From NCBI GenBank assembly GCA_027489245.1, contig JAIYAC010000026.1:1-64000 (forward strand): a DNA stretch of 64,000 nucleotides. Direction: 5' to 3'. Source of the stretch: Neisseriaceae bacterium (GTDB lineage Bacteria; Pseudomonadota; Gammaproteobacteria; Burkholderiales; Chromobacteriaceae). Both the position numbers and the translations under genes were made by a program. Numbering within the stretch: the first letter of the stretch is position 1; every line of letters starts with the position of its first letter. The notes below the pieces were generated by a model, which made no database searches, had not been told where the DNA came from, and was given only the letters and a program-made list of their open reading frames with translations. This document shows, piece by piece, positions 15,280-17,774 of the stretch.

Positions 15280-16221
15280 ATGACTGAACACAAGCACACT
15301 ATCCCCGTGGTCGCCGGCGCGCTGATGCGCCCGGACGGCCAGTTCATGCTGGGCAGCCGCCCCGCCGGCAAACCCTACCCGGGCTACTGGGAGTTCCCCG
15401 GCGGCAAGGTAGAAGCCGGCGAAGCGCCATTCGACGCCCTGGTGCGCGAGTTCCAGGAAGAAATGGGCATCACCGTCACCCACGCTACCCCCTGGCTGCG
15501 CCGCGCACACCACTATGAACACGCGTCGGTAGAACTGCTGTTCTACCGTATCTGGGCGTGGCAGGGCGAGCCGCAACCACACGAAGGCCAGGCCTTTGCC
15601 TGGCAGGAGCCTGGCCACCTGTCGGTAAAACCCATGCTGCCGGCGAACGACCCCATCTTGCGCTCGCTGCAGCTGCCGGACGTGCTGAACCTCACCTGCA
15701 TCAGCGAAACCGGGCGCGACACCCTGCTGCACAAGCTGGCACAGCGCCAGGACGCCCCGTGGGTGATCGTGCGCGAGCCGCAAAAAAGCCGCGAACAGTT
15801 GGCCGCACTGGTAGGTGAACTCAGCGAGATCATTCACCCGCGCGGCGGCAAGCTTATCGTGAACGCCGACCCGGCGTGGCTGAAAGGCTGGCCGGTGGAT
15901 GGCGTGCACCTGAATAGTGCACGGCTGGCCGCCTGCGAAGCACGCCCGCACTTTGCCTGGGTGGGCGCCTCGTGCCACAGCCGCGCCGAGCTGGCCCACG
16001 CCGCCGCACTGGGGCTGGACTACGCCCTGCTGGGCCACGTACAAGCCACCGCCAGCCACCCCGGCCAGCCCCCGCTGGGCTGGGATGGCCTGGCGAGCTG
16101 CCTGGCGCCGGCGGCACCGCTGCCAGTCTTTGCCCTGGGTGGGCTCTATGCGGCCAACCTTGAGCAGGCCAGACAAGCCGGCGCCCACGGCGTGGCGCAA
16201 ATGCGGGGGGCCTGGCAATGA
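15280..16221 (+). CDS. Nudix (MutT-like) fused to thiamine phosphate synthase-like domain
   Basis: Nudix box GKVEAGEAPFDALVREFQEEMGI; C-terminal ThiE-like GCSCH/LGHVQ region (VGASCHSRAEL, ALLGHVQATASHPG). Confidence 0.88.
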   Translation: MTEHKHTIPVVAGALMRPDGQFMLGSRPAGKPYPGYWEFPGGKVEAGEAPFDALVREFQEEMGITVTHATPWLRRAHHYEHASVELLFYRIWAWQGEPQPHEGQAFAWQEPGHLSVKPMLPANDPILRSLQLPDVLNLTCISETGRDTLLHKLAQRQDAPWVIVREPQKSREQLAALVGELSEIIHPRGGKLIVNADPAWLKGWPVDGVHLNSARLAACEARPHFAWVGASCHSRAELAHAAALGLDYALLGHVQATASHPGQPPLGWDGLASCLAPAAPLPVFALGGLYAANLEQARQAGAHGVAQMRGAWQ

Positions 16222-16649
16222 AGAAACTCAGCCGCCAGCAATGGCTATTTGTCGGCATTGCCCTGATCTGCTTTGCCCTGCTGAAGGCCGGGCTGATTTA
16301 CTGGTACCTGCAAAACAAAGGCAGCGAGCTGCAGCGCCAGGACGTGAGCTGCAGCAACCTGCAGCAAGGCTGCACCCTGCCCGATGGCAGCGTGCTGCGT
16401 TTTGACCGCGCACCACGCCATAGCAAGCCTTTCCTGATCACCCTCAGCAAGACGGCCGGGGCCGCGCCGGCGGCGGAGTTTTCCATGGAAAAAATGGACA
16501 TGGGCTTTAACCGTTACCGCTTTGTCGATGGCCAGACGCAGTGGAAGGCTAACGTCACCCTACCGGTATGCATCAGCGGCAGCGGCGACTGGCTGCTAGA
16601 CCTGAAATACACCGACCACAGCTACCGCGTACGCTTTAAAAGCCTGTAG
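16218..16649 (+). CDS. Small membrane-anchored hypothetical protein
   Basis: N-terminal TM helix; overlaps preceding stop by 4 nt. Confidence 0.65.
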   Translation: MKKLSRQQWLFVGIALICFALLKAGLIYWYLQNKGSELQRQDVSCSNLQQGCTLPDGSVLRFDRAPRHSKPFLITLSKTAGAAPAAEFSMEKMDMGFNRYRFVDGQTQWKANVTLPVCISGSGDWLLDLKYTDHSYRVRFKSL

Positions 16650-16898
16650 CGCCAGCCAGGCCAGCCGCGGTGGCTGGCCATGCGGGGCTGCACTGTTGGC
16701 CGCAGCACACCACACCACCGCACGCATGGCCAAGCGGCCATCGCTTGCCCTCTGCATGTCGGCCGCGGGCTTGTCAGCCCCTCGTTCCCCCTGCGGTCGC
16801 CATCTCTCTCAGCGCACCGGCCCAGGCTGCCTCAGCCTCACGCAAGCCCCAGCAATGAGCGGCCATTTCCTACGCAAACTCATCGATGCCAAGCAGGC

Positions 16899-16914
16899 TG
16901 GCACACTGCTTGCT
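16899..16914 (+). promoter_or_regulatory. Candidate sigma-54 (-24/-12) promoter
   Basis: TGGCAC-ACTGC-TTGCT matches TGGCAC-N5-TTGCW exactly, in a convergent intergenic region. Confidence 0.6.
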
Positions 16915-17003
16915 TAATAAACCCTGCTCTTTGGAGCGACAGGTGTTGTTTCCCGCATTTTGGGCTGGGTTTGAATAAATCCGGCATGGAGAGGGAAATA
17001 TTT

Positions 17004-17041
17004 TGCACGGATTTGGTGCAAAAGCTTCCCGAATTGGTGCA
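17004..17041. promoter_or_regulatory. Candidate NtrC enhancer: one full palindromic site and one half-site 21 bp apart
   Basis: TGCACGGATTTGGTGCA (17004-17020) fits TGCAC-N-GGTGCA glnA-type sites; TTGGTGCA at 17034-17041. Confidence 0.6.
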
Positions 17042-17056
17042 AAGCGCCAATTCGGG
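17028..17056 (+). terminator. Hairpin overlapping the NtrC half-site, possible terminator
   Basis: CCCGAATTGG / CCAATTCGGG 10-bp perfect arms followed by GGCTTCTTTT. Confidence 0.45.
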
Positions 17057-17151
17057 GCTTCTTTTCAGGATATTGCGCCACGCACACTGCGGGGCGCCAG
17101 GTTTGATAGAGGGAGAACCAGAACGGCTAAGCCGTCATCTCAACAAGCCAG

Positions 17152-17182
17152 GGGTTGGCCGCAGCCATGCGGCCAACCTTTT
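17152..17182 (+). terminator. Intrinsic terminator from an inverted DUS-like pair
   Basis: GGTTGGCCGCA-gcca-TGCGGCCAACC then TTTTGCTTTT; no annotated + strand gene directly upstream. Confidence 0.75.
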
Positions 17183-17222
17183 GCTTTTCTGGCGCCCCAC
17201 ACCACAGCAGCCATGCCCCATT

Positions 17223-17774
17223 TCAGGGCTGATCGCCCACCAGGTAGCGTTTGCTCATCTGCTTGAACAGCGCCGACCCCGACACCCGCAAGCACTCGAA
17301 CAGCACCATCTCACGCGTTACCAGCACCGCCCCGGCATCCCGCATGCGCTGCAGGCCGTACTCGCGGTTAAGCTCGCCGCGGCTGGACACCGCATCCGCT
17401 ACCACAAACACCTGCTTGCCTGCCTGCAACAGCTCCATCACCGTTTGCAGCACGCAAACGTGCGCTTCCATGCCGCAAACGATGACCTGGTGGCGCGACA
17501 TCAGGCCATCAGGTAAACACTGGCCGGCCACGCAGGAGAAATGCAGCTTTTCCACCACGTCAGCCTGCGGTGCGGCCTCTAGCAGAAGTGGCAAAGTGCC
17601 GCCCAAGCCCTGCGGGTACTGTTCGGAAAACACCACCGGCAGCCCCAGATCCACCGCCGCCGCAACCAGCCAATGGCAGCGCGCTACCATGCCGTCGGCG
17701 TCCAGTACGGCGGGCACCAGCTTTTCCTGTATATCCACCACCAATAGCGTGGCATCGTCTTTTTCGATAAGCAT
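17223..17774 (-). CDS. Isochorismatase family cysteine hydrolase
   Basis: ATLLVVDIQEKL, VVEKLHFSC, VIVCGMEAHVCVLQT, VFVVADAVSSR. Confidence 0.9.
   Translation of the reverse strand: MLIEKDDATLLVVDIQEKLVPAVLDADGMVARCHWLVAAAVDLGLPVVFSEQYPQGLGGTLPLLLEAAPQADVVEKLHFSCVAGQCLPDGLMSRHQVIVCGMEAHVCVLQTVMELLQAGKQVFVVADAVSSRGELNREYGLQRMRDAGAVLVTREMVLFECLRVSGSALFKQMSKRYLVGDQP

Follow-up and report, generated by a model that had tools for sequence, protein, structure and literature searches.

Candidate sigma-54 promoter between two gene ends

In the 64,000-nt stretch of Vogesella DNA analyzed here (the window), a plus-strand gene ending at 16649 and a minus-strand gene ending at 17223 converge, and the gap between their 3′ ends contains an apparent sigma-54 promoter. 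What would such a promoter serve between two gene ends? A first-pass annotation, which had described the gap in the same way, proposed a noncoding RNA controlled by sigma-54 and NtrC. It had placed there a sigma-54 box at 16899-16914, an NtrC palindrome at 17004-17020 with a second half-site 21 bp away, a hairpin at ∼17028-17056 with a T-rich tail, and a terminator at ∼17152-17182. The box and both NtrC elements were found as placed, and the hairpins were recovered as terminator-like structures at 17027-17057 and 17150-17181; shuffled sequence gives 0.7 ± 0.8 such matches. The features of the locus are collected in Table 1, with the predicted +1 position set 12 nt past the C of the −12 element.

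Table 1. Predicted features of the intergenic locus and its neighboring genes
Feature	Positions	Strand	Evidence or remark
143-aa protein gene, upstream neighbor, outside the sRNA	16218-16649	+	No NCBIfam match
Sigma-54 promoter (−24/−12), TGGCAC-N5-TTGCT, TGGCACACTGCTTGCT	16899-16914	+	Box kept at all 46 sRNA loci
Predicted sRNA, long form, ∼264 nt	16925-17188	+	Conserved block, fold z of −6.1, terminator end; transcript inferred
Predicted sRNA, short form, ∼142 nt, should the internal hairpin act as a terminator	16925-17066	+	Fold z of −5.2
5′ hairpin GCUC-N4-GAGC, then conserved GACAGGUGUUGUU	16926-16937	+	Arms invariant in 14 Vogesella, loop variable
Hairpin of variable sequence with stem kept (UUUCCC/GGGAAA, CUUCG/CGAAG, and CUCUG/CGGAG types)	16947-17000	+	Single folds of 14 species; arm-swap control
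NtrC-type site TGCAC-N5-TGGTGCA, TGCACGGATTTGGTGCA, center at +87	17004-17020	+	Arms invariant in 14 Vogesella, center variable
Strong hairpin (17027-17057) plus T-rich tail, possible internal terminator/attenuator, Vogesella only	17027-17066	+	
Second NtrC half-site (TGGTGCA) at a distance of 21 bp, within hairpin 17027-17057	17035-17041	+	Conserved in Vogesella
GGUUUGAUAGAGGGAGAACC, purine-rich loop flanked by short pairing arms	17100-17119	+	Nearly invariant within Vogesella; other genera have the related AAAGGRGA
Hairpin ACGGC-NNA-GCCGU, family-wide 3′ module	17123-17135	+	100% of cells paired
Intrinsic terminator, inverted pair of abundant repeat word GGTTGGCCGCA	17150-17187	+	Hairpin spans 17150-17181
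Isochorismatase-family hydrolase gene, downstream convergent neighbor, synteny anchor	17223-17774	−	

The sigma-54 box reads TGGCAC-ACTGC-TTGCT, and its sole departure is an A where G often follows TGGCAC. Perfect boxes number 11 per 7.0 Mb of strand in the Vogesella genome, so that ∼0.0008 would be expected per 520-nt strand window, and the box at this locus is therefore beyond chance. The palindrome differs from TGCACCA-N3-TGGTGCA at 2 of 14 positions. Sites with one or two mismatches are present near the sigma-54 promoter in 14/14 Vogesella.

Conservation within Vogesella

When relatives were searched at the DNA level, the region 16894-17203 turned up in 13/13 other Vogesella genomes, which is the conservation of sites that the first-pass annotation had named as a check. 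It begins at the sigma-54 box and ends past the second terminator. Among the 14 Vogesella sequences, per-column identity rises from 0.52 before the box to 0.86 within it; it is 1.00 in both arms of the NtrC-type site and 0.59 in its five-base center, and 0.98 in both the hairpin at 17028-17057 and the 3′ core at 17102-17141. The species covered by a pattern scan of the genome set include V. indigofera, V. oryzae, V. aquatica, V. urethralis, V. margarita, V. fluminis, V. alkaliphila, and V. mureinivorans, and the next genus in that scan is Pseudogulbenkiania (P. ferrooxidans 2002 and P. subflava). Invariant arms around a free center would fit the binding site of a dimeric protein, yet they would fit a stem too; because the site can form an RNA stem in Vogesella, invariance of the arms alone is no proof of protein binding.

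A structured RNA with a family-wide 3′ module

Folding of the RNA of 16920-17200 gives −131 kcal/mol (z = −6.1). For its 5′ half, the structure was taken from individual folds; RNAalifold on a MAFFT alignment was misled by an indel. Folded one by one, the 14 Vogesella sequences share a single architecture between the promoter and the NtrC-type site, built from differing stem sequences. In the arm-swap control, the stem at 16947-17000 scored a mean of −16.7 kcal/mol with its own arms versus −12.9 kcal/mol with swapped arms, which gives moderate backing to this stem. Since the stem survives sequence change, the stretch upstream of the NtrC-type site is arguably transcribed. The hairpin at 17027-17066, which is restricted to Vogesella, lies directly 3′ of the NtrC-type site. 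It includes the second half-site, and thus the putative enhancer and the possible attenuator overlap.

The module common to all genera consists of a purine-rich stretch (AAAGGRGA/AGAGGGAGA), a CGGC-NNA-GCCG hairpin, and a terminator. Standard pairs occupy 93.7% of its cells, and its covariation score is greater than that of any of the 500 shuffles or of any slid control. In the hairpin at 17123-17135, the outer pair is A-U in nine sequences, those of Vogesella and Pseudogulbenkiania, and G-C in the six from other genera.

The conserved core could in principle encode a short peptide instead, as it includes a stretch like a Shine-Dalgarno sequence, AAAGGAG/AGAGGGAG, which is followed just after by an ATG in some genomes of genus g7. 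The start codon is not conserved, however, and the compensatory changes fit RNA structure. Because different species read the same core nucleotides in three frames, no reading frame is conserved, in keeping with the transcript without a protein proposed by the first-pass annotation. A small protein gene is largely refuted and, in our estimate, highly improbable. The predicted product is short and structured, lacks a conserved open reading frame, and ends at an intrinsic terminator, the features by which an sRNA is recognized.

Rfam searches at gathering scores returned no match for the window and six homologous loci, and a relaxed scan of 16880-17220 returned weak matches at chance level only. 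Several GGA motifs lie in loops within 16930-17120, as might be expected of an sRNA that sponges CsrA/RsmA, but CsrA (PF02599) is absent from 13/13 family genomes examined, with control genomes positive. The absence of CsrA excludes such a role in those 13 genomes, and we regard its probability as negligible.

The terminator contains an abundant repeat word

The stem of the sRNA terminator (17150-17181) is an inverted pair of a hugely overrepresented word. The sequence AGGTTGGCCGCA occurs 798 times in the Vogesella genome, where 1.3 occurrences are expected. The pattern GTTGGCCGMA occurs 2323 times in the Vogesella genome of the window, 1951 to 2925 times in other Vogesella, and ∼630 to 2230 times in Pseudogulbenkiania, g3, g5, g10, and genome G018; the reversed pattern gives roughly 15 to 50. 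Judging from these counts, the word behaves like a DNA uptake sequence (DUS). P. ferrooxidans 2002 (G014), formerly Lutiella nitroferrum, carries 1149 copies of GTTGGCCGMA. It is one of two Pseudogulbenkiania-related genomes in which no obvious DUS was reported (PMC3630211). The terminators of the g7 sRNAs (L092, L094, L100, and others) often have arms of the GTTGTCGAAG type instead; within 42 kb of g7 loci, this word has 16 occurrences, some of them being the sRNA terminators themselves, and it may represent another dialect of this type of repeat. Direct-repeat matches of the terminator across the genome were rejected as sRNA copies and belong to this separate repeat.

Distribution across the Chromobacteriaceae

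An initial covariance model for the 3′ module recovered 14 copies from Vogesella, three from Pseudogulbenkiania, and one divergent but syntenic copy from a further genus. More copies, laid out alike, were found downstream of the isochorismatase orthologue, where the DNA was read in nine genera. The covariance model R2 of the 3′ module, built from 15 of the 46 sequences (31 being outside the training set) and leaving out the promoter, detected one strong copy per genome in 46/62 family genomes, representing six genera: 14/14 Vogesella, 3/3 Pseudogulbenkiania, and, in other genera of the Chromobacteriaceae, 1/1 of g5, 1/1 of g10, 9/10 of g6, and 18/19 of g7. In a 401-genome sample of the order, credible copies were confined to this family, which we take from its named relatives to be the Chromobacteriaceae. 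No copy was detectable by R2 in four family genera that do have NtrC. A match in G024 was discarded for want of a promoter, and a weak match outside the family (G381) was rejected.

Because the promoter is absent from R2, the presence of a sigma-54 box at every copy is an independent test. Scored against YTGGCAC-N5-TTGCW, a box was found upstream of 46/46 copies, with at most one mismatch in 45 and two in G077; the class-defining GG-N10-GC within TGGCAC-N5-TTGCW was likewise present. The box, NtrC-like site, hairpins, and terminator are conserved together, which favors the sigma-54/NtrC-controlled noncoding RNA of the first-pass annotation as far as sequence comparison can.

The NtrC-like site lies on different sides of the promoter

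An NtrC-like site (≤3/14 mismatches) accompanies 45/46 sRNA loci, and its position is constant within lineages. The center of the site is at +87/+88 in all Vogesella and at +98/+100 in all Pseudogulbenkiania, downstream of the start and inside the predicted transcribed region. In four other genera, it lies upstream, at −84 to −162 and mostly at −96 or −120. The usual position of an NtrC enhancer is upstream, at about −100 to −140, which we treated as a usual and not an obligatory criterion; the sites in the four other genera agree with it, and those in Vogesella and Pseudogulbenkiania do not. Upstream of the sRNA promoter, NtrC-like sites are lacking in the Vogesella and Pseudogulbenkiania genomes, save one with three mismatches at −320 in G003. 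The enhancer would be conventional if another sigma-54 promoter lay between the NtrC site and the 3′ module, but a reading of 17021-17100 revealed none. Among the 46 loci, those of a few relatives have weak NtrC-like sites only or, in G054, none. NtrC-like sites with ≤3 mismatches are frequent in general, numbering 323 in the 3.5-Mb genome.

The downstream enhancer had been flagged in the first-pass annotation as atypical and as a possible sign of a relict glnA/glnK region. Its position stands and proves to be specific to the Vogesella and Pseudogulbenkiania lineages. Reading the locus as a relict, or as shared intergenic DNA without a product, would agree with an enhancer in an unusual place and with the convergent gap, but both glnA and glnK-amtB occur intact at other places, under promoters of their own, and the folds, covariation, and terminator are conserved across six genera. 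We therefore dropped this reading, which we consider very unlikely. Since the same RNA has an upstream NtrC-like site in relatives, the enhancer appears to have changed sides in the Vogesella/Pseudogulbenkiania lineage(s). The isochorismatase tree (support of 50/60) is weakly consistent with a single origin of the downstream arrangement.

Candidate activators

The Vogesella genome encodes NtrC above the TIGR01818 cutoff, with NtrB adjoining, and RpoN, glnK-amtB, and Hfq are also present. NtrC scored above the cutoff in 21/22 genomes examined, the sole exception being the outlier genome G019, which also has no sRNA. The ntrC gene and the sRNA are on different contigs in the Vogesella genome (C6 and C11) and ∼30 kb apart in several other genera. 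The genome also contains 11 HTH_8 matches, mostly to proteins resembling bacterial enhancer-binding proteins (bEBPs), and the NtrC-type site can form a stem in the RNA; a sigma-54-driven sRNA might thus respond to another such protein, with TGCAC-N5-TGGTGCA serving only as an RNA hairpin. In four other genera, however, the motif is upstream of the promoter and so cannot be in the RNA. Moreover, it equals the motif of glnA and that of a site before ntrB in the Vogesella genome, and G019 lacks both the RNA and NtrC. A different activator is accordingly improbable in our view, and NtrC remains the favored one. The NtrC-like sites of the Vogesella glnA lie at −97, −114, and −127 of its sigma-54 start, like those of the sRNA genes in the four other genera.

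The site just before ntrB (CGCACCAAAGTAGTGCA; G000, C6:138630) is a good NtrC-type site, which suggests autoregulation of ntrBC.

Proposed mechanism

From the conservation, promoter, NtrC-like site, structured RNA, and lack of a conserved reading frame described above, we infer with high confidence that 16899-17188 is an sRNA gene, probably transcribed under sigma-54 and NtrC, with phosphorylated NtrC (NtrC-P) presumably acting from downstream. Under nitrogen limitation, NtrC-P would bind the predicted site at 17004-17041 and loop back to the sigma-54 polymerase at 16899-16914, leading to initiation near 16925. NtrC enhancers are able to act from downstream when experimentally placed there. 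Transcription would stop at 17181-17188, with perhaps some termination at 17057-17066. The sRNA probably acts in trans and is likely stabilized by Hfq; its conserved working part would be the 3′ module, made up of a purine-rich loop, a CGGC-NNA-GCCG hairpin, and a terminator.

The broader proposal, to which we assign about an even chance, is that of a nitrogen-responsive sRNA, found throughout a family of water and soil bacteria, whose enhancer switched sides, being upstream in four genera and at approximately +88 to +100 in Vogesella and Pseudogulbenkiania. A plausible course would combine the rise of a new sigma-54 box, upstream of the old NtrC site, with decay of the former promoter. If the proposal is true, NtrC-bound DNA inside the gene must be crossed by every polymerase, which might give self-limiting bursts, with possible further attenuation at the internal terminator that adjoins the enhancer.

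Our working guess, by analogy with NrsZ and GlnZ, is that the sRNA regulates nitrogen or carbon use in trans. When crudely defined gene starts of one genome were scored by duplex energy, no target stood out. The groEL leader (a bulged match of ∼17 nt) was rejected as a target; the match is shared with G004 and absent in other Vogesella and other genera. The sRNA seeds differ between genera.

Comparison with known systems

A literature search that reached a minority of the subscription journals found no report of an sRNA in Vogesella. NrsZ of Pseudomonas aeruginosa was reportedly described by Wenner et al. in 2014. It is an intergenic sRNA, dependent on NtrB/C and RpoN and induced by nitrogen limitation, of ∼226 nt with additional shorter forms (PMC8395346). 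The Vogesella sRNA is alike in kind, with control by NtrBC and RpoN predicted from sequence. NrsZ adjoins ntrC, whereas the Vogesella sRNA is beside an isochorismatase gene with ntrC on another contig, and its NtrC-like site is downstream. Because the location differs and an Rfam scan found no homology, we do not file the sRNA as NrsZ.

Binding sites of a bEBP past a sigma-54 start are known from the FlbD-dependent flagellar promoters of Caulobacter, which have downstream ftr sites. Those promoters differ in serving protein-coding flagellar genes and in their activator. LuxO is the bEBP of Qrr1. Qrr1 of Vibrio fischeri is likewise an sRNA from a sigma-54 promoter activated by bEBPs (PMC10162802), but it is a quorum-regulatory RNA with other bEBPs, and the sequences were compared by Rfam scan only. 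GlnZ of enterobacteria, likewise a noncoding arm of the NtrC regulon, is cut from the glnA 3′ untranslated region, whereas the Vogesella sRNA has a predicted sigma-54 promoter of its own (PMC9731577).

V. indigofera, whose genome carries the sRNA, can be manipulated genetically, and a complemented rpoN mutant exists in this species (PMC12826045). Set beside these systems, the sRNA family and its side-switched enhancer appear new, and the kind of regulator is already known. The loci provide natural pairs in which the same sigma-54 gene has its enhancer either upstream or downstream, and therefore the old question of what the position of an enhancer does to sigma-54 activation becomes testable on native promoters.
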